From contig JAPDKB010000007.1 of the NCBI GenBank assembly GCA_029258795.1, forward strand, positions 243,070 to 307,069: a DNA stretch of 64,000 nt, given 5' to 3'. The notes under the pieces are model-generated. The model saw only the letters and a list, made by a program, of their open reading frames with translations, was not told the origin of the DNA and did no database searches. This stretch comes from an archaeon (GTDB taxonomy: Archaea > EX4484-52 > WAPT01). The stretch's first letter is position 1; each line of letters opens with the position of its first letter. Shown here in pieces: positions 11,027 to 62,285 of this stretch. Position numbers and translations under genes: made by a program.

Positions 11027-11710
11027 GTGGGTCTGGCAGATAAGCTGGGAGGAATCACCTCAAAATTCAAGAGGAAATCTCTCGACCAGAAGATAGATGA
11101 AGCTCTGAAAAGTCAATCTTCCACTAACAGAATGAGCGATTTTTCAAGCACTTTCTCACAGCTAAACAAAAACGCTGCTGAAAGGTTCAGAAGTGAGGTG
11201 AGTGGAGCTGGCAAGGCCATGTTCACGAGAGCTGAGGAGAGATTTGATTCAAACTACCCCGCGATAGAAAAAGCTCCTTTTGGAGATATGACTCAGGAAA
11301 GCCCTTTGACCAGGGACTTCGATAAGTTCCCATCAGGAGATAACTTTCAAAGCGGTTTTGAAAGAATGGAAACAAAGAGAGAGCCCGCTGCGCCAATGGA
11401 AGAGAATCCCTTCATGCATGCAGCAACGTCCATGCCCTCCCTACCTGAGGAAAATAATGCTCAACCTCAACCCCCATTTCAGCAGGAAAGCGCACGTTCC
11501 TTCTCAACCACTGAGGTCTCTTCTCATCCCGGTGTTGAGACAAGAGCAAGGGAAAGTTTTGGTGAAACCTCCCTTCCTTTATCATCTCCGCATCCCACAA
11601 GCACCACCCAAGCCGATATTTCCGCGGTTCTGAGGGAGTTGCAGGCCATCAGGGAGCAGAATGCCGTAATTCTTGAAAAGCTGAAAAGAATCGAGGAGCG
11701 GTTGAGGTGA
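11027..11710 (+). CDS. Hypothetical disordered protein with C-terminal coiled coil
   Basis: 227 residues from GTG at 11027, preceded by GGGTG with 7-base spacing (an in-frame TTG at 11021 is the alternative). The body is rich in Ser, Pro, Glu, Gln and Phe with little predicted fold. The last 35 residues (ISAVLRELQAIREQNAVILEK onward) form a regular heptad helix ending in a basic stretch. It may be an oligomerising adaptor, but nothing identifies a function. It is divergent from the TIM-barrel gene. Confidence 0.6.
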   Translation: MGLADKLGGITSKFKRKSLDQKIDEALKSQSSTNRMSDFSSTFSQLNKNAAERFRSEVSGAGKAMFTRAEERFDSNYPAIEKAPFGDMTQESPLTRDFDKFPSGDNFQSGFERMETKREPAAPMEENPFMHAATSMPSLPEENNAQPQPPFQQESARSFSTTEVSSHPGVETRARESFGETSLPLSSPHPTSTTQADISAVLRELQAIREQNAVILEKLKRIEERLR

Positions 11711-49651: not shown

Positions 49652-50776
49652 TTACTCGGTTTTGAGAGCGCACCATCCTACAGGCTGATTGCTGGATGTC
49701 AGCTTGATGGAGAGGGGGAATTTTCTCCAGTTGTACGCTGATCTTCTCCAGTAATTTCTTACGAGCTGCTCGTAAAGCCAAGAGTTGCGATCTTTTATTA
49801 TAGAGAGTATTGTTTTGTACAGGATGCTCGTGTGTGCTCCAAGTCTTACCAGCACCTTATCATCTTCCTGCTTCAGTTCCATATCCCCCATTTCGAAATG
49901 ATGATCATTTTTTATGACAAAATTCGTGAATTCCTTCACGATCTTCAGTGTTCTGTTAATGAACTCTTCCTTTTCCACCTTTTCTCCGAAGATATTCTTC
50001 ACCACTTCATCAAACTCTTTCTTGTATTTGTTTCTAACCACATCGAAGTTCGGAGCGATGAGCATTTCTCCCTCGAAGGTTCCTTCCACGCACTCCACCA
50101 GAAAGTTACCTCTTCTGCTCCTAGATCTATTAACCTTTTCTATTCTGATTTCTTCCAGCAGAAGAGTATAGTTTACAGGGCGCATATCCCTCAAAATGAG
50201 GAGTTTGAGAAGATCTTTCTGTGGGTCGTACTTGCTTTCCTTCTCATCAAATTTAGTTTGTCTTTCGAGTGAAAGTAGTATGTCGAGGTATTTCTGAACA
50301 TATTTTGGTAATTCCTTTCTATTCTGGACATATCTCTCAATCAAAGACTCTAGTCTCATATAAGCAGAACTATTGTTCTGAAGGATGCTCCATACAAATG
50401 CTGTTCTTATGTATCCTTTAAGAGAACTTCCCGGGATATAAGGAACGTAATTAACATCCTTCATGAACTCCTTAACCTGTCTAGGAGATGATATTCTGCT
50501 GGAAGTGTTTGCGGGCAGCTTTATCTCATAGATTGCATGCTTTTCATCCTTCCTCGCTTCGAGCTTGTTCAAGAGCTGCTCTATCCCTCCTCTGATATCT
50601 GAAGATTTCGCAACTTCTTCAACAAGATCCATATTTTCCTCCAAAAGCTTGGATAAGGAGATCCTGTAAGCAGTGTTACCTTTCACCAGCAATTCTGATG
50701 TCAGATAGACCTTATCTGTGCCTGCACCTATGAAGAGAGGAGTTATTGTACTTAACTCTATTCTCATTCTACTCAC
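49652..50776 (-). CDS. csm5: Csm5, type III-A effector subunit (RAMP)
   Basis: 374 residues. LSTITPLFIGAGTDKVYLTSE and YIPGSSLKGYIRTAFVWSIL are the Csm5 RAMP motifs (glycine-rich loop and SSLKG). Csm5 caps the crRNA 3' end. The ATG overlaps the csm4 stop by 4 bases. Last gene of the csm operon, ending 5 bases from the convergent thrS. Confidence 0.92.
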   Translation of the reverse strand: MSRMRIELSTITPLFIGAGTDKVYLTSELLVKGNTAYRISLSKLLEENMDLVEEVAKSSDIRGGIEQLLNKLEARKDEKHAIYEIKLPANTSSRISSPRQVKEFMKDVNYVPYIPGSSLKGYIRTAFVWSILQNNSSAYMRLESLIERYVQNRKELPKYVQKYLDILLSLERQTKFDEKESKYDPQKDLLKLLILRDMRPVNYTLLLEEIRIEKVNRSRSRRGNFLVECVEGTFEGEMLIAPNFDVVRNKYKKEFDEVVKNIFGEKVEKEEFINRTLKIVKEFTNFVIKNDHHFEMGDMELKQEDDKVLVRLGAHTSILYKTILSIIKDRNSWLYEQLVRNYWRRSAYNWRKFPLSIKLTSSNQPVGWCALKTE

Positions 50777-51810
50777 CTCAGTTCAGCAGCAACATCCCGC
50801 CAGTCTGGGAAGGGTAAAGTGAGAGGTTTTCCCACGAGCGTGTAATTTATCTTCGAGTCCTCATGGACAACTATTTCATAAGAGTAATCCGCCCGTAAAA
50901 TGGAGCCAGGATGAAGGAAGGGTGTGAGTCTTATCCTCTCTCCAACCCTGTTGTAGCCGTAGCACACGGAATAAGTGTAAAGGTTACCATCATCCTTCCA
51001 CGGCTTGCTGTTTTTACCCAAAACCCCGTTGGAAAGGAGCATAATGAAGGGATATTTTTCTTTTTTCTCGAAAAGTTTCGAGTCCCATTTTTCCTCTATC
51101 TGCGTTATCCTGAATTTTCCGAAGCCCTCCGTGATTCTCTTACCCAGTCCCCAGTCCTGAAGGAGCTGGAATGCGGAGCACACAATATCGAAGATTTTCC
51201 TTTTCTCGTATTCTATGAGGATGGAGTAGCTGAGAAGTATTTTTCGGGCGCCCATTTCTATTTCCAAGGATGTGGCTGCTTTCTCATAATAGGGTGTTGC
51301 CATCACCGGCAATCTTTTCATGACATTTTTTGGTATGTCTATCCGCTTAAACCCTGCTCTCAGTAATTGAGGCGGCTCTGCGTTTTTTTCTGTTTCGTTT
51401 TTACCCTCCATCTTTTCGAGCAAGTTCTTGAACTGTTCCATTATTTTTTCCGTGCTTCCCGATTCCAGAGAATCGAGCAGTGCTTTCAGTTGTTCCTCAG
51501 ATATGTATTTTATTTCTTTCATCTTTTTAGCTTTCTTTCCTCTTTCCGGATCCTCTTCACCAAAAGCGAGGCTCAGTATCCTAAAGAGTTTTGGCACGGG
51601 AAAGTACTGCACATCCAGATCTTTTGTCACGAGCCTCGGCAGGATAGTAGACATTCTCACTTTATCTTTCTGCAACGCTGAGTAAAGAGCTTCCCCTTTC
51701 TCTCTTTCCATTTCATAAGCAGCTCTCAAAACTGCTCCGTAGAGCTTGAAGGAATCTATTCTTCCCGCTACAGGAGATTCAAACTGCAGAGTGATTCTGC
51801 CCAATGACAT
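50773..51810 (-). CDS. csm4: Csm4, type III-A effector subunit (Cas5-like RAMP)
   Basis: 345 residues. The N-terminal RRM (GRITLQFESPVAGRIDSFKLYGAVLRA) and C-terminal LGKRITEGFGKFRI (glycine-rich loop) are typical of Csm4, which binds the crRNA 5' handle and Cas10. Several Lys/Glu-rich loops (GEEDPERGKKAKK, EGKNETEKNAE) are insertions. It lies 28 bases after csm3's stop. Confidence 0.9.
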   Translation of the reverse strand: MSLGRITLQFESPVAGRIDSFKLYGAVLRAAYEMEREKGEALYSALQKDKVRMSTILPRLVTKDLDVQYFPVPKLFRILSLAFGEEDPERGKKAKKMKEIKYISEEQLKALLDSLESGSTEKIMEQFKNLLEKMEGKNETEKNAEPPQLLRAGFKRIDIPKNVMKRLPVMATPYYEKAATSLEIEMGARKILLSYSILIEYEKRKIFDIVCSAFQLLQDWGLGKRITEGFGKFRITQIEEKWDSKLFEKKEKYPFIMLLSNGVLGKNSKPWKDDGNLYTYSVCYGYNRVGERIRLTPFLHPGSILRADYSYEIVVHEDSKINYTLVGKPLTLPFPDWRDVAAELR

Positions 51811-51838
51811 GGATACCTCCCGTAATTCATTGGGAAAT

Positions 51839-52564
51839 TTAAGGTGAGTAGTTTTCTTCCGTCTTCTCTTCCCTCTCCGTGATCGTTATCTTAACTTTTC
51901 CGTATCCTCTGGTTCCGTGTCCGCCAAGGTAATCGTCGTTGAGCCTTTTAATTGCCTCTCTTACCAGATTCTCGATTTTCTGCTCATCATCTCCCTCATA
52001 TATTCTCAGGACAAATTCCACTTTGAACTTACTTCCTGCAGGGACTCGCTCTATGAATCGTGGATTGGCTCTTGAGAGAATCCTGTTTATCGAGTTCTCA
52101 GCCTTTATTTCGCCTCCTTCCACGATTTCATCCTGCTGGTTCCACCATTTTATGGTTTCTAGCGTGGGTACCGCATCTCTAACTATCAGTCTGGTGGGAG
52201 CGTCCTTTACCTTCACCTTCTCCGAAGCCGGGTGACCGAAAACCTTGCAGATGAGACAATCGTCTCCGTTCTCCAAACAATCTGTTTTGGTCTCTCCTAT
52301 CCTGTCCTTATTCTTGGTATCTATGTGTCCGTATGCTAGATCCAGCAGAGAGCGCATCTTGCCTTTCAGAGAGCTTCCCGGAATTATGGGCAGGTACTGG
52401 CATTCTCCCGTTTCCTGAATAAATACGGGTGCTCTGATAACCGGAGAGTCGACACCACCTATTTTCAGATATTCTCCAGCACCACCTATGTGCAAACCGG
52501 TCAGCACCTCGAGCTCTCCCCTCAGTATTATGTTCTTTTTCCACTTTAATCCGTTCGAGTCCAT
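51839..52564 (-). CDS. csm3: Csm3, backbone RNase subunit of type III-A complex
   Basis: 241 residues from ATG at 52564, preceded by GAGAGGTGA 6 bases upstream (an in-frame GTG at 52573 is less likely). VLTGLHIGGAGEYLKIGGVDSPVIR contains the conserved Asp (GGVDSP) that cuts target RNA every 6 nt in this family. YLPIIPGSSLKGKMRSLLD and GHGTRGYGKVKI are the RAMP loops. Active-site Asp appears intact. Confidence 0.94.
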   Translation of the reverse strand: MDSNGLKWKKNIILRGELEVLTGLHIGGAGEYLKIGGVDSPVIRAPVFIQETGECQYLPIIPGSSLKGKMRSLLDLAYGHIDTKNKDRIGETKTDCLENGDDCLICKVFGHPASEKVKVKDAPTRLIVRDAVPTLETIKWWNQQDEIVEGGEIKAENSINRILSRANPRFIERVPAGSKFKVEFVLRIYEGDDEQKIENLVREAIKRLNDDYLGGHGTRGYGKVKITITEREEKTEENYSP

Positions 52565-52569
52565 ATTTT

Positions 52570-53022
52570 TCACCTCTCAGTTTTGTTTTCTTTTTCTTTT
52601 TTCCCTTTTTTTGATTGATTTTCGAAGAATTTGTGATAAGCCACCAAGGCTTTCGTTATTTCATGAAGCTCTTCGAGGTATTTTACCTTTTTATTTTGAT
52701 CGTTTTCGTCGAGGATTTGCTGAATATAATACTCGAAGAAACTGTGTAATTTCAGCGGTACTGGCTGGTTTTTTCTACCAGCCGCGTAGTATATTTTGGT
52801 TAAGAACTTAACGAGTTCTACGTCTATATTCGCTCTCCCCTTCTTGCTTTTTTCTCTGATATCGCTGAGAGCATCATAAATTTTTCTGAGCTGAGTACTG
52901 CTTATTTCTTTCTTTTCTCCCAGGTCTTTTGCTAGCCTGAATATTTCTCCCCCAGGTCGTATGATTTCCGGTAATTTTTCTGCTACTTCATCCAGGCTCG
53001 GCAACTCGTATTGGTTACCCAT
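52570..53022 (-). CDS. csm2: Csm2, small helical subunit of type III-A complex
   Basis: 150 residues, all helical: AKDLGEKKEISSTQLRKIYD, IDVELVKFLTKIYYAAGR, FFEYYIQQIL, ending in a Lys-rich tail. Identification uses the Csm2-like centre (SSTQLRKIYD...YAAGR) and its position between csm1 and csm3. It overlaps csm1 by 8 bases. Confidence 0.88.
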   Translation of the reverse strand: MGNQYELPSLDEVAEKLPEIIRPGGEIFRLAKDLGEKKEISSTQLRKIYDALSDIREKSKKGRANIDVELVKFLTKIYYAAGRKNQPVPLKLHSFFEYYIQQILDENDQNKKVKYLEELHEITKALVAYHKFFENQSKKGKKEKENKTER

Positions 53023-55552
53023 TCACAATCACCTCATCCAGTTTTATTGCCGGAATGAAATCCAAGCCGAAACGAGTTAACACGAGAAACATTTTGAGGG
53101 CAAAGGAAAGGTAACCTCCTTCTTTATAAGCCCTGCTAGCTTTTCTGACCTTTTCTATGAATTCTTTCATCTCTTCCACATTATTCCCTCTCCAGTTTCG
53201 CGAAATGATGTAGTAAATGTAAATCTCCGGCACTACTATTACGGGTCTGCCACGCGCCAGCTTTTTTGTTTGCTCTTCTTCATTGTAGGGAAGCGTTAGA
53301 TTCTCCACCGTGAGAAGCTTGTAGAACACACTTCTAGAAAGCGCTCTCTCTTTATCCGCTTTGTCATTGGAAAGTGCTGCGAAGGTGTGGTAAAGCTCGA
53401 TCGCTTTCCAAAACTTCTCCCATTGAAGATTTTCGTTCTCATCGAACATTGTTATCCTGTTTTTCTCACCTTCCTTGGAGAGGTCAAGAAAGCGGGATGC
53501 ATTCTCAACCATTCTGAATATCGGGAACTTGTGAGAGTTGAAATAAAAGCCAGCTGAAATTCCTATTTTTTCATTTCCGCCGCACCACGTGTGGAAGAGT
53601 TTTCTCATATCATGCGTAAAGGAGAGTAGCCTGTCAATTCTCCCCACAACAGTGAGATCGTCTCCTCCCGAAAACACCACATAACAATCATGAACTCTTG
53701 CAACTTCATTGACGATTTTGGTGAAAAATAGATCGAGCTGAAAACTGAGGGTTGCCAGTCTGGAAGGAGATAACCTGTCCACAAATCCGAACCTGAAGAC
53801 ATGGCCAAGGTTATCCACATCAGCTTTGAGCATTGCGAGATAGGCATTTCTCTTTTCTTCATCCACCCGAGCCCCATCCACCCAAGTCAGTTCCTCCAAT
53901 GTTTTAACTCTAACGCTCTTTCCGTCTTCCCCTTTCTCTACCGGTGTGTAGCTGCCAGTGATGAAGTAACCGTGAACACCTTGGCTGCTTTGAGAGGGTT
54001 TCAGGAGAAGCACTAGATCCGCTCCTTCGCTTTTTCCATCAAGATAATATCGTATGGAGAAATCGCCAAACTTGAATGCTATGTGCGATCTCTCCTCCTC
54101 AAAATCGTTTATTCTTGCTCTCAAAAAGCTTGACCTCACAACTCTCCCACCAACCATTTCCAGCTGGAAGCACTTCTCACATTTCTGAAACTCGTCATCT
54201 TCTCCTTCCTGCCTCACCTTTCTAAGCCCGCACACCCTGCAGGTTTCATCCTCTCCAGTGGGCGCGTCCTCCCTGTCAAGCTCCTTCCTACCAAACATCT
54301 CAAACCTCAGCTTTTTCATTTCGGTGTCGATTCTGGCCTTTTTAAGAAGGCTTGAGAACCATCCCTCCTTATTTATATCCTCAACGCCAACTCCGATGGC
54401 TATTTTCAGTATTCCTCCGTGGCGGGAGTAGAGGAACCTGTTCACATTTTCCTGAAACTCTCTAACCATCTTCTCCAGTTCATTGGTATAGGGTGCTAGG
54501 ATCATGAAGTGTCCTCCCGCCTTGGAAACTATGTTGAAGGGTGTCAGCCTCAGCTCGTGCAGGATGTAGCGGACAACAGCATCCGAAAGCAGGGAGACGT
54601 AGAAGCTCCTTCCTCTCAGCCTTTTCGATGCTCCCTTCTCCGATCCTTCTCCCCTGTATGTGTAGAAGATGAAGTCCTGAATTCCGGATACATCTCCCTC
54701 TATCAGAGCGATTTTGTTTTTGTGAGGGGTGTTTCTGCTTCTGAAGAGGATTAAAGCTATGGCTGCCGTCATTTTGAGGTGATGGTAAAGAGGTATGTCA
54801 GGTACATCAACATAAACCGCTGAGGGGACGAATATTAGGTGGTTCATCAGCACGGCATCCAGAGCATCGAGAAAGTAGGGATCGCTGTAATCCAGAGAGT
54901 TCAGTGCCTTGAGAAGTCTCTCATTTATTATTTTGTAGCACTCGGTTAGAGTTTGTGATTCCTTGTTCTCTATTATTGCACGCGAAACCCTTACTGCCTG
55001 TGCCTTTTCAGCCGGCATGAAGCGTTTGTAACCCTCTTTGTAACTCTCCTCAATGTTGAATTTCCCGAGAAAGTCCTCAAGAGATATCATCGGAAAGAAT
55101 TTGAGCGTGCTCTGATTTGCTTCTCTCATACCATTTCTCACATCACTCTCGCTCATCCCGATGGTGGAGATGATGGAGAGGAGTGGCGTGTCCTCTCTCC
55201 TACCCCTGATGTCTTCTTCTTTCTCCTCCTCACCCTTCAGTTTGGTTCTTTCCGCTCTCGCAGAAATTATGTCAGCCTGCTTTATTATTTTCAACTCCTC
55301 CCTATCGATGTTCTCATGATGGTTTATGACAACATCCGCGATGTACTTCCTCAGCTCTTCCGGGAGAGATTTCACCTTCTCTATGAACTTTGATCCGCAT
55401 TTTCCGTGATCTTCTTTCAGAAAGACTGTGCTCACCTTCCCGATGTCGTGAAAAACTGCTGCGAGAACGAGCCTTTCTTCGTCAGAAGTCAGCCCGTAAT
55501 GAAAGGTTTTACCCCCTATGACCACCACCGATTTGATTTTGTCGGGTTTCAA
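53015..55552 (-). CDS. csm1: Csm1 (Cas10), type III-A signature subunit with HD and GGDD
   Basis: 845 residues. HD nuclease motif LAAVFHDIGKV (near residue 35, then HHENIDRE), first palm-like region YVSLLSDAVVRYIL, zinc-ribbon CRVCGLRKV...CEKC (about 434-463), and the cyclase palm motif CYVVFSGGDDLTVVG (near residue 628). GGDD is complete, so cyclic oligoadenylate synthesis is expected. HD is also complete, so ssDNA cutting may occur. It starts the csm operon at ATG 55552, with TATA-like AATTTAAATTTT upstream and a palindromic operator at 55588-55608. Confidence 0.95.
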   Translation of the reverse strand: MKPDKIKSVVVIGGKTFHYGLTSDEERLVLAAVFHDIGKVSTVFLKEDHGKCGSKFIEKVKSLPEELRKYIADVVINHHENIDREELKIIKQADIISARAERTKLKGEEEKEEDIRGRREDTPLLSIISTIGMSESDVRNGMREANQSTLKFFPMISLEDFLGKFNIEESYKEGYKRFMPAEKAQAVRVSRAIIENKESQTLTECYKIINERLLKALNSLDYSDPYFLDALDAVLMNHLIFVPSAVYVDVPDIPLYHHLKMTAAIALILFRSRNTPHKNKIALIEGDVSGIQDFIFYTYRGEGSEKGASKRLRGRSFYVSLLSDAVVRYILHELRLTPFNIVSKAGGHFMILAPYTNELEKMVREFQENVNRFLYSRHGGILKIAIGVGVEDINKEGWFSSLLKKARIDTEMKKLRFEMFGRKELDREDAPTGEDETCRVCGLRKVRQEGEDDEFQKCEKCFQLEMVGGRVVRSSFLRARINDFEEERSHIAFKFGDFSIRYYLDGKSEGADLVLLLKPSQSSQGVHGYFITGSYTPVEKGEDGKSVRVKTLEELTWVDGARVDEEKRNAYLAMLKADVDNLGHVFRFGFVDRLSPSRLATLSFQLDLFFTKIVNEVARVHDCYVVFSGGDDLTVVGRIDRLLSFTHDMRKLFHTWCGGNEKIGISAGFYFNSHKFPIFRMVENASRFLDLSKEGEKNRITMFDENENLQWEKFWKAIELYHTFAALSNDKADKERALSRSVFYKLLTVENLTLPYNEEEQTKKLARGRPVIVVPEIYIYYIISRNWRGNNVEEMKEFIEKVRKASRAYKEGGYLSFALKMFLVLTRFGLDFIPAIKLDEVIVNG

Positions 55553-55651: not shown

Positions 55652-56599
55652 ATGAAAGAGCACATCTACGTTGTTTCCAGCGGCGTGATCTACAGGGAGA
55701 GGAACACGCTGGTCATAGCGGGAGAGGAAAAGGTCGTTCTGCCGGTGAAGAGGGTCGCGTCCCTTCACATCTACGGCAACGTTTCCATAGCATCTCCCAC
55801 GCTCAGGCTGCTGAGCGAGAACAACATTCCGGCTTACTTTTTCTCCAGAAATTACACTTACCACGGCGCTTTCATTCCAGCGGGATGGAAGGAGAACGGC
55901 AGGGTATTGCTGGCGCAGAGCAAGGCGTATTTTGATAAGCGCATTCATCTGGCAAGGTTCTTCGTGGAGAGTGTGAAGAACAGCATGCTTCTCTTTCTCA
56001 AAAACCATTACGATGCCGAGATTGTTAAGGAGATCAAAGGTGTGCGCCTCGAAGCTGCTTCCACCGTGCACGAGCTTCTCGGCATGGAGAGCGTGCTGTG
56101 GAAGCATTTTTACAGTTTTCTGCGTGATCATCTTGAATTTCTCGAGTTCGAGAGAAGGGTTTACAGACCTCCACCGGACAGTGGAAATGCTGTCATAAGC
56201 TTCGTTAACTCCCTTCTCTACGGCGCGGTTCTAAACGAGATATACAACTCTGCCCTATCTCCATCCATCGGATATCTCCACGAGGTGGATGAGTGGAGGC
56301 ATGCGCTCGTTCTGGACGTGGCGGACGTGTTCAAACCGGTGATATGCGCACCCGTTCTGCTGAGAGCTGATAAGGTGCTCGGGGAGGAGCATTTTGAAAA
56401 GAGGGGATGTGCTGTCTATCTAACTCGTGAGGGCAGATCTGCTGTGGTTGAGCTTTTCGAAAGGAAAATGAAAAGCACCGTGAGAATAAAGCGAACGGGA
56501 AAGACATCGAGCGTGAGAACTGCCATAAGATCCTTCTGCGTGGGGCTCAAGGACAGTCTCCTCAGGAAGAAAGAAATTTATCCTTACACCCCGTGGTGA
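55652..56599 (+). CDS. cas1: Cas1 integrase
   Basis: 315 residues. N-terminal beta domain (YVVSSGVIYRERNTLVIAG), then the helical catalytic domain: SFVNSLLYGAVLNEIYNSAL, SPSIGYLHEVDEWRHALVLDVADVFKP with Glu, His and Asp catalytic residues. It inserts spacers with Cas2. Stop TGA overlaps cas2's ATG by one base. Confidence 0.95.
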   Translation: MKEHIYVVSSGVIYRERNTLVIAGEEKVVLPVKRVASLHIYGNVSIASPTLRLLSENNIPAYFFSRNYTYHGAFIPAGWKENGRVLLAQSKAYFDKRIHLARFFVESVKNSMLLFLKNHYDAEIVKEIKGVRLEAASTVHELLGMESVLWKHFYSFLRDHLEFLEFERRVYRPPPDSGNAVISFVNSLLYGAVLNEIYNSALSPSIGYLHEVDEWRHALVLDVADVFKPVICAPVLLRADKVLGEEHFEKRGCAVYLTREGRSAVVELFERKMKSTVRIKRTGKTSSVRTAIRSFCVGLKDSLLRKKEIYPYTPW

Positions 56600-56868
56600 T
56601 GGCTGTGTACTGCATAGTGGTTTACGATGTGGATGTGAGCAGGGTGGACAGGGTTCACAAGTTTCTCAGGCAGTATCTGTTCTGGATTCAGAACTCCGTT
56701 TTCGAGGGGGAACTCACCGCTCAGGAGTTCAGGGAGGTAGTTAGGGGTTTGAAATCCATAATAGATGAAAGCAAGGACAGCGTTGTTATCTACGTGCTGA
56801 GGGATGCGAGCCTCATAAAGAGATCCATCATAGGACAGGACAAGAACAGATTCTCCCGGATAATATGA
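56599..56868 (+). CDS. cas2: Cas2
   Basis: 89 residues from ATG at 56599 (upstream GTGs are in frame but overlap cas1 more). AVYCIVVYDVDVSRVDRVHKF with the conserved Asp, and FLRQYLFWIQNSVFEGELT. Structural partner of Cas1. It is followed by the array leader. Confidence 0.93.
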   Translation: MAVYCIVVYDVDVSRVDRVHKFLRQYLFWIQNSVFEGELTAQEFREVVRGLKSIIDESKDSVVIYVLRDASLIKRSIIGQDKNRFSRII

Positions 56869-56986
56869 TCGCTTACAATTATACCAATATGACCTACGTT
56901 TCAAGCACAGCGCAAAGATTAACCAGAAAATCAAGATGGAAAGACATTTAAAACTCAGATGCGCGAAATAACCATCGCAGGCGAGG
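56869..56986 (+). promoter_or_regulatory. CRISPR leader with TATA box
   Basis: 118 AT-rich bases between cas2 and the first repeat. TTTAAAA at 56947-56953, about 37 bases before repeat 1, is a TATA box reading into the array. The repeats next to it are invariant, and degenerate ones lie at the other end, so this is the leader end. Confidence 0.7.
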
Positions 56987-59369
56987 GTTTGAGAAGAACT
57001 AGATAGTGTGGGAGCGCAAATATTACTTAATAGCTTGGTGGCTTTATTTTCCAAGTTTGAGAAGAACTAGATAGTGTGGGAGTTCCCACCTAAAGCTAAA
57101 CTTTGTGCCACCACATTCCTTAGTTTGAGAAGAACTAGATAGTGTGGGAGTTAATCATCTTCATCCTCTATTTTCCTAACTACAATTAAAGTTTGAGAAG
57201 AACTAGATAGTGTGGGAGCCAGCTAAAATACGGCAAGGCAACACACCCAAAACCAACCGTTTGGTTTGAGAAGAACTAGATAGTGTGGGAGCCTGGCTTT
57301 TCCTTTTTTCTTTCTTGGGTCCTTAACTATGTTCAGTTTGAGAAGAACTAGATAGTGTGGGAGCCGCTTCATTTTTGGCGTTACACTTATCCTTGCCTTT
57401 TTGTGTTTGAGAAGAACTAGATAGTGTGGGAGTTCCCTGAAAACTCCGTAACTCTGTCCCTAACGCTATATTGTTTGAGAAGAACTAGATAGTGTGGGAG
57501 TGTGAATTGATTTTAAAGCTTCATCATGAATACGCTTAAAATCGTTTGAGAAGAACTAGATAGTGTGGGAGACATTGGCTTCTGAGCTTAAACTTAGAAA
57601 TGGACAAACGGTAAGTTTGAGAAGAACTAGATAGTGTGGGAGCTTTTTTACATTAGTCCAACACTTTGGGTAGGGTGCTGGTTTGAGAAGAACTAGATAG
57701 TGTGGGAGTCCCCTAAATATCGGTAACCCACTTCTACCTTATATCGTGTTTGAGAAGAACTAGATAGTGTGGGAGTCGGCGATGAACTCGTCCCATGTCA
57801 TAACTCCTCACCTGCTCCGTTTGAGAAGAACTAGATAGTGTGGGAGCAGACCTTTTGTTTAATTTCTGTTACGTATATCGATTTTCCTGTTTGAGAAGAA
57901 CTAGATAGTGTGGGAGTGTTTTGTTTTTGAAATGTAGCGTTATTTGTGTCATGCTAGTTTGAGAAGAACTAGATAGTGTGGGAGTTTTCCCATTTTTCTC
58001 GTGTGATTTTAGTCATCACATCACCTCGTTTGAGAAGAACTAGATAGTGTGGGAGTGCGATGGATTGGGTAATCTCTGAGCATCGCGTACGCACATGTTT
58101 GAGAAGAACTAGATAGTGTGGGAGTATACCTCTTTATCTCAAAAAAATCTATCGCTCTTTTCATCCCCGTTTGAGAAGAACTAGATAGTGTGGGAGCGTT
58201 TTCGTCAACACCAAGAGATTTCAAGAACTGGGGTGGAAGGGTTTGAGAAGAACTAGATAGTGTGGGAGTTTCGTTATTGTGTTTAAAAGCCGTGTTGTTA
58301 AGTTCCTGTCCGTTTGAGAAGAACTAGGTAGTGTGGGAGAAGGTAAGAATTCCAGAAAAAACAACAGAAAGATTGGCAAGTTTGAGAAGAACTAGATAGT
58401 GTGGGAGAATGTTTCTATTGCATATATCCTATCCTCGACCTCAATGGTTTGAGAAGAACTAGGTAGTGTGGGGGTGTTTTTTTGTTTTTATTATTTTATC
58501 TAATGCTTCATTCATATGTTTGAGAAGAACTAGGTAGTGTGGGAGTCCTTGTCCATCCCTTTCTTAATTCTGTCAAGCTCAAGAGTTTGAGAAGAACTAG
58601 ATAGTGTGGTAGTGTAATTACAAACCCAACGGCAGCTAATATCAAAGCTGCTTGTGTTTGAGAAGAACTAGATAGTGTGGTAGATTACCCATCTTTACCT
58701 GCTTCACTACCTTCCTGCTGACCGTTTGGTTTGAGAAGAACTAGATAGTGTGGGAGTTGCCCAGCCACCACTTTTTTGTTCCTCAAACACTCCGCTTGTT
58801 TGAGAAGAACTAGATAGTGTGGAAGTCACCTTCATGCCTGATCTCAAGGCTGGCCTTACTCAACAGTTTGAGAAGAACTAGGTAGTGTGGTAGCCTCAGC
58901 ATGCTTTCCTTATCTCTATATGGACAGATCCGTGGTTTGAGAAGAACTAGATAGTGTGGTAGGTACTTTCCATGTTGCAATGACACCACAACTTCTGCGT
59001 TTGTTTGAGAAGAACTAGATAGTGTGGTAGGACACCACAACCTTATCGTTTCCATCTCTGCATCACCTTTGTTTGAGAAGAACTAGATAGTGTGGTGGTT
59101 GATTGTATGCTCGGATGTGCGAGGTTCAATTCATCGGTTTGAGAAGAACTAGATAGTGTGGTGGTCGAACTTTTCCGATTTTAGTGCGTGCTTTATAGGA
59201 TTGTGTTTGAGAAGAACTAGATAGTGTGGAAGTTTCCGTTAATTCCATGCTTGCTATACCGCTCGCTTTCCAGTTTGAGAAGAACTGGGTAGTGTGGAAG
59301 AGTTGGAACGTTCTGAAGCCTTCTCGTCACACATAAAATTGAGTTTAAGAAGAACTAGATAGTGTGAAG
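56987..59369 (+). CRISPR. CRISPR array, 35 repeats and 34 spacers
   Basis: 28-bp repeats, beginning GTTTGAGAAG and ending GTGTGGGAG in the consensus, separated by spacers of 38-45 nt. Repeat 1 is at 56987-57014. Variants appear from about repeat 20 on: AGGTAG for AGATAG, then GTGGTAG, GTGGTGG or GTGGAAG endings. Repeat 34 (59273) has two changes, and the last (59343-59369) is one base short. The gradient puts new spacers at the left. Short open frames on either strand inside the array are not genes. Confidence 0.98.
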
Positions 59370-59465
59370 TTCAAAATCCTTGCCGGAAATGTTTTGAGCG
59401 TGAGATCGGGATTTGAGAGAGTTAAGCATGAAGGTTAGCATGCAAAACACTATTTCTTCAGCCGC

Positions 59466-59475: not shown

Positions 59476-59557
59476 AGTGTGCAGCCTAACGTGAAGAGAA
59501 AGTCCGTAACACAGAAATTGTAAATAGCACTGGACACTTAGATATTATTTTTCTTTG

Positions 59558-60910
59558 ATGTTCATAAGAAACCTCGGCAATGTTTTTAAAATTTTTGAGG
59601 ACATACTACCTCTGATGTTTGAAAAAACTCCAAAAAGTGGACTGATAATAAGCGTTGGGGTCGGTCAGGGAATAGAAAGCGCGATCTGCTACTCCATATC
59701 GGTCTCTCACCCCGACAAAGTTATTTTTCTGGTCACGCCGCAAAGCGAGAAGGACACGATGGAAAGAGTGCAGAAGGAATGCGCAAAAAAGGACGTCGAA
59801 ATACCCGAAAGCGAGCTGATTCTGATTGAAAATGAGAATGATGTTGAAGCTGTGTTTAAGAAAGCAAGGGAAGCCATAAAAAGAATGAGAAAAAGCGATA
59901 TCCCTCCTGCGAACATAACGGTGGATTACACTTACGGCACGAAATCCATGTCTGCAGGACTCCTCTATGCCACGATACTAGAAAGGTGTGGTCATATAAG
60001 GTATGTAACCGGTAAGCGAGATTCAAAAACAGGGAGAGTTATCCCGGGTACGGAGAAGGAACTCACAACCAGCATTCGGGATCTTCTTGCTCCTATAGTG
60101 ATAAAGGACGCTATATCATTCTTCAACCTCTACCAGTTTGCTGCGGCAAAACGTGTTCTGGAAAGTTTTCTTGAAGGGATGGATGAGGAAAGTGCCATGA
60201 AAGTCTACCCATCCATCTGTCGGCTTTTCAAGCTGTGCGAGGTTTACAGGCATTGGGATGCCTTCAACCACGAAGATGCTTTGAAGGCATTTGAAGAAGT
60301 CGACAGAGAAGCTATAAGGAATATTGCTCCGCAGATAGGTGTAAATAAGGGCTGGCTGGGGAAAATAGTTAACGGGTTAAAAGGAGAAGAAGGTTTGAAT
60401 TTCGCGGAAGAACTACTTGTAGATCTCTGGATGAACGCAAGGAGAAGGATGGAGGAGGAAAGGTACGTTGATGCGGTTTCAAGGTTTTACAGACTCACAG
60501 AAATGATAGCACAGCACCAGCTGGAAAAGAACTACGGAATCGACACAAGAAATGTAGATATTGAGAAGGTTCCGGAAAATCTAAGAAATGAGCTGGGAAA
60601 TTACAGAGATGAGAAGGGAAAAATCAAAATCCCTCTCTTCAAGGCATATGAGCTTCTAGCAAGTTTGGGAGACCCACTGGGCAAAAAAGTTATGGAAGAC
60701 GAAAATACTTACAAACTCTTCAGGTCAGTCATCAGTTTCAGAAACAACTCAATCGCTGCTCACGGAACCCAGCTAGTTGGAAAGGACTTCGCCGAAAAGT
60801 TTGAAAAATTCGTCGAGGAGCTGTTGAAGGAGGCGATTGGAGAAAGGAAGCTGGAGAAGATGGAGAAGGAAGCTGCTTTCCCAAAACTTGACCCCCAAAA
60901 AATAAGCTAA
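59558..60910 (+). CDS. Csm6-like CARF-HEPN ribonuclease (Cas_Cas02710 family)
   Basis: 450 residues from ATG at 59558 (the preceding TTG is in frame but unlikely). The N-terminal CARF domain has LIISVGVGQGIESAI and ITVDYTYGTKSMSAGLLYA as its ligand-binding strands. The C-terminal helical part ends with FRSVISFRNNSIAAHGTQL, an R-x6-H HEPN RNase motif. It is predicted to be switched on by cyclic oligoadenylate from Csm1 and to degrade RNA. Family assignment to Cas02710 rests on the YGTKSMSAG and RNNSIAAHG motifs. It is followed by cas6 after 21 bases. Confidence 0.85.
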   Translation: MFIRNLGNVFKIFEDILPLMFEKTPKSGLIISVGVGQGIESAICYSISVSHPDKVIFLVTPQSEKDTMERVQKECAKKDVEIPESELILIENENDVEAVFKKAREAIKRMRKSDIPPANITVDYTYGTKSMSAGLLYATILERCGHIRYVTGKRDSKTGRVIPGTEKELTTSIRDLLAPIVIKDAISFFNLYQFAAAKRVLESFLEGMDEESAMKVYPSICRLFKLCEVYRHWDAFNHEDALKAFEEVDREAIRNIAPQIGVNKGWLGKIVNGLKGEEGLNFAEELLVDLWMNARRRMEEERYVDAVSRFYRLTEMIAQHQLEKNYGIDTRNVDIEKVPENLRNELGNYRDEKGKIKIPLFKAYELLASLGDPLGKKVMEDENTYKLFRSVISFRNNSIAAHGTQLVGKDFAEKFEKFVEELLKEAIGERKLEKMEKEAAFPKLDPQKIS

Positions 60911-60931: not shown

Positions 60932-61678
60932 ATGAGAATAGTGATCCTTCTCAAACCACTCACGAATGCATCTTATGATGCGATAAACAAGCATCACATC
61001 CAAGCTACAATATACTCCCTCCTTAGATCCACACCTTTTGATATCATCCATGAGCTCAGAGGGTTTAAGTACTTCACCTTCTCTGACATAATGCCTCCCA
61101 CAGATTTTAAAGAAGGTGAGCCAAAGCACATGCTCTTCAGCTCGCCCATGTCTTCACTGGTCAAATTCCTGAAAAACAGAATAAAAGAGGTGGGACGTGT
61201 CAAAATAAAAGATATATGGTTCGAGGTTGATGTGAAAACCGTACCTCAGAAATTCACCACAAGATGGATCACCGCAAGCCCCATAGTGCTTTATAAAGAT
61301 TCGAGGAAAAATGTTTACTTCTCCTTTTACCGGGACACGAATCTCCAGTTCTTCCTGGACAGGCTGAAGGAAAATGCTCTGAAGAAATACAACATCTACT
61401 ACAACGATGAGCTGAATTTTGAAGAGCCCCTCTTCGACATCATGAAATTCAACAAATCCGTATCGGTAGAGCTGACCAAAGATAAGAAAAAGTTCATAAT
61501 CATAGGGAGCACATGGAAACTCCTTGAAAAGATCAGGGTGCCCCGGCATCTCAGAAAGTTCTACAGATTTATATTTGATTGCGGACTCGGAGAAAAGAAC
61601 AGCCTTGGTTTCGGTTGTCTGAACGAACATCCCAGCCTCAGGAAACACTCTTCTCGATCTCGTAAATCTCAAGCATAG
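60932..61678 (+). CDS. cas6: Cas6 pre-crRNA endonuclease
   Basis: 248 residues. Start ATG follows GGGAG. It begins MRIVILLKPLTNASYDAINK and ends with the glycine-rich loop CGLGEKNSLGFGCL that defines Cas6. His46-type catalytic residues are hard to place by eye; HHIQ near residue 21 is a candidate. It cuts the array transcript in each repeat. The 3' end overlaps the convergent CARF regulator by 41 bases. Confidence 0.9.
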   Translation: MRIVILLKPLTNASYDAINKHHIQATIYSLLRSTPFDIIHELRGFKYFTFSDIMPPTDFKEGEPKHMLFSSPMSSLVKFLKNRIKEVGRVKIKDIWFEVDVKTVPQKFTTRWITASPIVLYKDSRKNVYFSFYRDTNLQFFLDRLKENALKKYNIYYNDELNFEEPLFDIMKFNKSVSVELTKDKKKFIIIGSTWKLLEKIRVPRHLRKFYRFIFDCGLGEKNSLGFGCLNEHPSLRKHSSRSRKSQA

Positions 61679-62285
61679 CCCTGCCTATATCCGTCAGGTA
61701 CACCACCTTTCTCTTGCCATCATACCTGTAATCGATCATACCCCATGTTCTCATTTTCTCCAGGTGTGTTTTTACGGTTGTGTCTGTGAGGTTAAGCTCT
61801 CTCGAGATTTCGTGCTGTGTAAGGATGCGCTCTCTCAGAAGCCTTGCTATTCTGTATCTCTGTCCCCTCAAACCGAAAAACGGCGATGTGTCGAGCTTTG
61901 GTGAGGGCACTTCCACATACTCCATCGTACCGTCCTTTCTCCTGAAAATGTAGAAAGCCTTTCCCCCCACGATCATGGTGTAGATGTAGAGCGCGAGAAC
62001 CATGATCTTTGTTCCGCCGGTGATGTTTGAGATCACATCATCTCCCACTCTGTATTTCACGCTCTTCCTCAGATCTGTTAGAATGACGTCAAGCCGGGAA
62101 GCATCGCTCACTATCACCTCAACTTCTCTGTAGAGTTTCTCGATGGCATTCCTGATGTCCTCGGCCATTCCGAATGTTTCCTGAGAACAGAGCAGGTAAA
62201 CTCTGTCTATCCTGCTGTGATATCTGAAACCCTCCAGAACGGGTGATTCCTGCTCACCAACGCTGCAGATCATTATCCTTTTCAT
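61638..62285 (-). CDS. CARF-wHTH transcriptional regulator (Csa3-like)
   Basis: 215 residues. The N-terminal CARF domain (KRIMICSVGEQESPVLEGF, SNITGGTKIMVLALYIYTM with the ligand-binding GGTK loop) is joined to a C-terminal winged helix (LLRERILTQHEISRELNLTD, TTVKTHLEKMRTWGMIDYRY). Csa3-type proteins sense cyclic oligoadenylate and control cas or adaptation genes. It is the best candidate to bind the TTAGA-N7-TCTAA sites. ATG at 62285 has GGTGAGG upstream. Confidence 0.87.
   Translation of the reverse strand: MKRIMICSVGEQESPVLEGFRYHSRIDRVYLLCSQETFGMAEDIRNAIEKLYREVEVIVSDASRLDVILTDLRKSVKYRVGDDVISNITGGTKIMVLALYIYTMIVGGKAFYIFRRKDGTMEYVEVPSPKLDTSPFFGLRGQRYRIARLLRERILTQHEISRELNLTDTTVKTHLEKMRTWGMIDYRYDGKRKVVYLTDIGRAMLEIYEIEKSVS

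Follow-up and report, generated by a model that had tools for sequence, protein, structure and literature searches.

Antisense-biased spacers in a standalone type III-A CRISPR locus of an uncultured archaeon whose assembly lacks a reverse transcriptase

The CRISPR array in the window, the 64,000-nucleotide stretch of archaeal DNA analysed here, has a real antisense bias: 28 of its 34 spacers (82%) score as coding on the minus strand under a codon model (binomial P = 2e-4), and the array would be transcribed on the plus strand. Probably, a standalone type III-A system free of reverse transcriptase makes plus-strand crRNAs antisense to virus or plasmid transcripts, and the bias came from selection, not from RNA capture. 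An original prediction, made from this DNA, had proposed both that crRNAs transcribed from the leader side would pair with mRNA and that selection could explain the orientation; the spacer count supports the former if crRNAs come from the plus strand, and the latter stands as the best explanation, with a published case in Thermus (PMC7515739). The sequences and positions quoted in that prediction, and its total of 34 spacers, were all present in the window.

A type III-A locus and the orientation of its array

The array is flanked by cas1-cas2 on one side and by csm6 and cas6 on the other, with csm5-csm2 and cas10 on the opposite strand (window coordinates):

49652-53022, minus strand: csm2, csm3, csm4 and csm5, over curated cut-offs
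53015-55552, minus strand: cas10/csm1, with HD and GGDD motifs
55652-56599, plus strand: cas1, 315 aa, single-domain, without a fused reverse transcriptase
56593-56868, plus strand: cas2
56869-56986, plus strand: leader, from cas2 to the first repeat, conserved in a genome of the same genus (G002)
56987-59370, plus strand: CRISPR array, 35 repeats of 28 nt and 34 spacers of 38-45 nt
59555-60910, plus strand: csm6, with CARF and HEPN domains and an RNNSIAAH motif
60932-61678, plus strand: cas6
61638-62285, minus strand: Csa3-like CARF-HTH regulator, scoring under the curated cut-off of the Csa3 model

With all five of Cas10/Csm1 and Csm2-Csm5 above curated cut-offs, and with its own Cas1-Cas2 and Cas6 adjoining the array, the locus is, judged by gene content, a complete, standalone type III-A system with ordinary adaptation genes of its own. 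The effector components carry the expected motifs, with HD at residue 35 of Cas10, GGDD (taken as the motif for cyclic oligoadenylate) at residue 629, and RNNSIAAH in the CARF-HEPN Csm6. The assembly, from an uncultured archaeon with a small genome, comprises 1.17 Mb, is 96% complete, and contains one array with the repeat GTTTGAGAAGAACTAGATAGTGTGGGAG (28 nt), one Cas1 and one Cas10. No Cas3 above cut-off and no reverse transcriptase domain were found in the assembly, which agrees with the earlier statement that no reverse-transcriptase Cas1 is present and places the locus outside the type III systems that have one. The closest named genome is a DPANN-group archaeon MAG (contig JALVWC010000018.1), and among named genomes this contig, that of G002, was the only one with relatives of the Cas1.

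The leader holds a TATA-like ATTTAAA box, approximately 35 bases upstream of the first repeat, that is kept in G002, and the repeats decay toward the right (distal) end of the array, the last being the most altered. The decayed distal repeats and the conserved leader together put the leader on the left, and the array would be transcribed on the plus strand, from the leader adjoining cas2. The repeat itself is uninformative on the transcribed strand, since folding gave no stable hairpin on either strand; a scan for bacterial promoters and terminators was likewise uninformative, the host being an archaeon.

Repeats 22-35 (58447-59370) differ mostly at positions 26-27, where GGGAG is replaced by GGTAG, GGAAG or GGTGG. 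On the plus strand these positions would belong to the 8-nt handle of the crRNA, and identical variants reappear in adjacent repeats. The two longest spacers (45 nt), spacers 4 (57219-57263) and 25 (58684-58728), both finish with the five bases that open the repeat (GTTTG), possibly through imprecise integration or partial duplication of a repeat.

Strand bias of the spacers

The codon model was trained on the window's long reading frames and is correct for 78% of host 41-mers; given that accuracy, the data are compatible with an antisense fraction of 0.85-1.0. Much of the minus-coding signal used by this classifier is purine content. The purine fraction of the spacer plus strands is 0.387, versus 0.569 in host coding strands (Wilcoxon P = 7e-5). 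This skew persists in the middles of the spacers (0.39, P = 3e-4) and is therefore not an end motif; older and newer spacers show it alike (0.397 in the distal half of the array, 0.378 in the leader-proximal half). The strand bias is more than chance on these counts.

When composition was held by shuffling, the codon-level strand signal was weak (22 of 34 minus, P = 0.19), and a count of open frames with composition held was added after this result. Of the 34 spacers, 33 had one or more open frames on the minus strand, versus 27.4 expected from mononucleotide shuffles (P < 0.0025) or 28.7 from dinucleotide shuffles (P = 0.0075), in keeping with the earlier remark that other spacers are open in this same sense. 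On the plus strand there was no excess (32 spacers; 31.9 and 32.2 expected, respectively). Some six spacers appear to be sense instead, and spacer 20 is a clear case. One spacer likely derives from a gene end, and its acidic KIEDEDD-stop reading, also proposed earlier, was confirmed:

57151-57190, minus strand: spacer 3, best minus frame VRKIEDEDD, then a stop

We infer the coding strand and the targets of the spacers from these frames and from composition. No protospacers were found for either the window array or the G002 array in the collections searched. All window spacers joined gave weak matches only against phages and plasmids (E 0.03-0.4) and nothing above chance against 34 genomes of the order and phylum; the G002 spacers, searched against order and phylum genomes, matched their own arrays only. 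Searches of viral contigs covered part of the window array (spacers 1, 2, 12, 15, 16 and 27, and the peptides of eight spacers). There, the degenerate pattern of spacer 15 and the exact 18-19-mers of spacers 1, 2, 16 and 27, and of a G002 region hit twice (see below), had no match, and none was confirmed for the joined peptides of the eight spacers. Two viral contigs matching the degenerate pattern of spacer 12 were rejected as chance: they share only the short peptide with the spacer, there are several synonymous differences, and no ribosome site lies upstream. All spacers compared with those two contigs (blastn-short) gave chance words only.

Spacers at translation starts

The original prediction called it striking that three of the 34 spacers hit translation starts, and four spacers are relevant to this claim:

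57776-57818, minus strand: spacer 12, AGGTGA, six bases, ATG, frame MTWDEFIA
57917-57956, minus strand: spacer 14, reads MTQITLHFKNKT (MTQIT), with no ribosome site inside the spacer
57985-58027, minus strand: spacer 15, GAGGTGA, four bases, ATG, frame MTKITREKWE
59031-59070, minus strand: spacer 30, AGGTGAT, six bases, ATG, frame METIRLWC

The MTWDEF and MTKIT frames of spacers 12 and 15 follow ribosome sites (AGGTGA and GAGGTGA) as described. Spacer 14 has the MTQIT frame attributed to it, but just four bases precede its ATG, so it has no ribosome site and was rejected as the third start. The total of three on the minus strand nevertheless holds, with spacer 30, missed earlier, in its place. 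With a ribosome-site match of at least five bases plus ATG required, these three were found on minus and none on plus, where 0.5 (shuffles) or 0.74 (host sense 41-mers) would be expected; the resulting P of 0.02-0.04 is post hoc, as the test was picked after the data had been seen. A four-base match gave no enrichment (3 versus 2.0-2.7 expected). The signal of special enrichment at translation starts is therefore weak and marginal, such enrichment is not established, and "striking" is too strong a word for it. Because viral genes are often shorter than those of their hosts, spacers should include more starts, and three start-site spacers is a number that short viral genes alone could yield. 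No sign that these spacers block translation appeared in this analysis.

The related array in G002 and the origin of the bias

The G002 array (L030, L051 and L052; JALVWC010000018.1) has the repeat GTTTAAGAAGAACTAGATAGTGTGGAAG, nearly the same as that of the window; the leader is conserved, the Cas1 proteins are 60% identical, and Cas1-Cas2 lie beside the array in both. Despite these similarities, its 27 complete spacers showed no significant bias, with strand calls of 16 minus to 11 plus and a maximum-likelihood antisense fraction of 0.65 (0.37-0.88). The plus strand had more open frames than expected, and so, less markedly, did the minus strand. Several G002 spacers are clearly sense, including a plain start site in sense orientation (AAGGAGGTGGTAGGAAAATGAAAAAAATCAA), and start sites number one in each orientation. 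The two arrays differ in purine content (P = 0.008) and, less clearly, in strand counts (P = 0.08), a comparison of small samples (34 versus 27 spacers). A fixed uptake preference ought to appear in both arrays, and selection by different virus histories fits better, within the limits of these small samples.

Two G002 spacers, one in L030 (reverse strand, 11371-11413) and the other in L051 (reverse strand, 219-262), have 28 bases in common, TCTACGAAATTACATTCGTGGAATCCAA, in the same orientation; this overlap is one target region sampled twice. Of the 61 spacers pooled from the window and G002, just 2 carry G as the third base counted from the 3' end (family-wise P = 0.014), possibly a weak signature of uptake. 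In a third genome of the genus, G001, we found only two decayed repeats and one spacer (L053:2002-2096) and no Cas1 match; the flank past the last repeat resembles that of G002, and the CRISPR system seems to have been lost.

The explanation that we consider probable would begin with transcription of the window array on the plus strand from the leader adjoining cas2. Cas6 would then process this transcript, giving crRNAs that are antisense to coding sequence over their spacer part. Cas1-Cas2 would most likely capture DNA fragments in both orientations, and a cell that had taken up a spacer complementary to a virus or plasmid transcript would gain Csm/Cas10/Csm6 immunity and survive, so that antisense spacers would accumulate. 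Spacers spanning a ribosome site and start codon would be chance overlaps with gene starts. In this account three points are deduced from the genomic patterns described above: that the spacers come from genes of viruses or plasmids, which strand the crRNAs have, and that selection caused the bias.

The bias could instead arise at uptake, if the adaptation machinery prefers a strand or sequence feature, such as the pyrimidine-rich strand, a DNA end, or the template strand of transcribed regions or gene starts. A bias so strong and so even along both halves of the array would fit such a preference, as would the shortage of G near the spacer 3' end and the uptake near gene starts reported for type III-A in Streptococcus thermophilus (PMC9048733). 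However, the skew extends beyond the spacer ends, the S. thermophilus uptake near starts concerns the encoding strand, the reverse of what the window array shows, and type III of Thermus, also without reverse transcriptase, takes up both strands when selection is absent (PMC7515739). The unclear bias of G002, despite its conserved leader and related Cas1, also speaks against a fixed preference, and we regard a bias set at uptake as unlikely. Its more specific form, in which adaptation without reverse transcriptase senses the template strand or gene starts and so places spacers antisense, is very improbable; if true, nearly every new spacer would be functional.

Pyrimidine richness might also have a non-coding cause, for example crRNA folding or loading, with the reading frames as a by-product. 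The classifier leans mostly on purine content, and the codon-level strand difference left after shuffling is weak, as this would predict, but the minus strand, unlike the plus strand, avoids stop codons when mono- and dinucleotide content is kept fixed, and on the minus strand spacer 3 looks like the end of a gene and spacers 12, 15 and 30 like gene starts. We find a non-coding cause quite improbable. It is hardly credible that spacers were chosen or kept because they cover ribosome sites and start codons and would let the crRNA complex block translation: the minus-only start-site spacers (three to none) would suit this idea, but their test was post hoc, a four-base site gave no enrichment, short viral genes could supply the count, and G002 has one start site per orientation.

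Selection on crRNAs complementary to transcripts also accords with published systems, and the window array is a strong example of the known type III coding-strand pattern. In a survey of mapped spacers, the coding strand was matched by 65% of type III spacers on average and by 88% of those of Moraxella III-B, a preference that the survey interpreted as selection for RNA targeting (PMC8482600); the direction is the same as in the window, where the 82% comes from a reading-frame score and not from mapped targets. Thermus type III systems take up spacers from both strands, and their strong bias comes from the survival of cells with transcript-targeting spacers (PMC7515739). Like the window locus, the III-A and III-B systems of Thermus thermophilus under phage infection have an ordinary Cas1, no reverse transcriptase, and a predominance of transcript-complementary spacers, although the bias in Thermus was established from mapped phage protospacers and traced to selection, whereas that of the window, from an uncultured archaeon, comes from tests of reading frame and composition (PMC7515739). 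Naive type III-A uptake in S. thermophilus, reviewed in PMC9048733, concentrates on the encoding strand, 10-50 bp downstream of start codons. That system too lacks reverse transcriptase and has spacers near start codons, but they are sense, while those of the window are antisense and only marginally enriched (PMC9048733).

Antisense spacers are what an RNA-targeting type III system needs to recognise virus messages. The general principle has already been published; the window array adds an uncultured archaeon with a small genome and a standalone type III-A locus to the systems with transcript-favouring spacers, and its contrast with G002 offers a natural comparison for telling selection from uptake preference.
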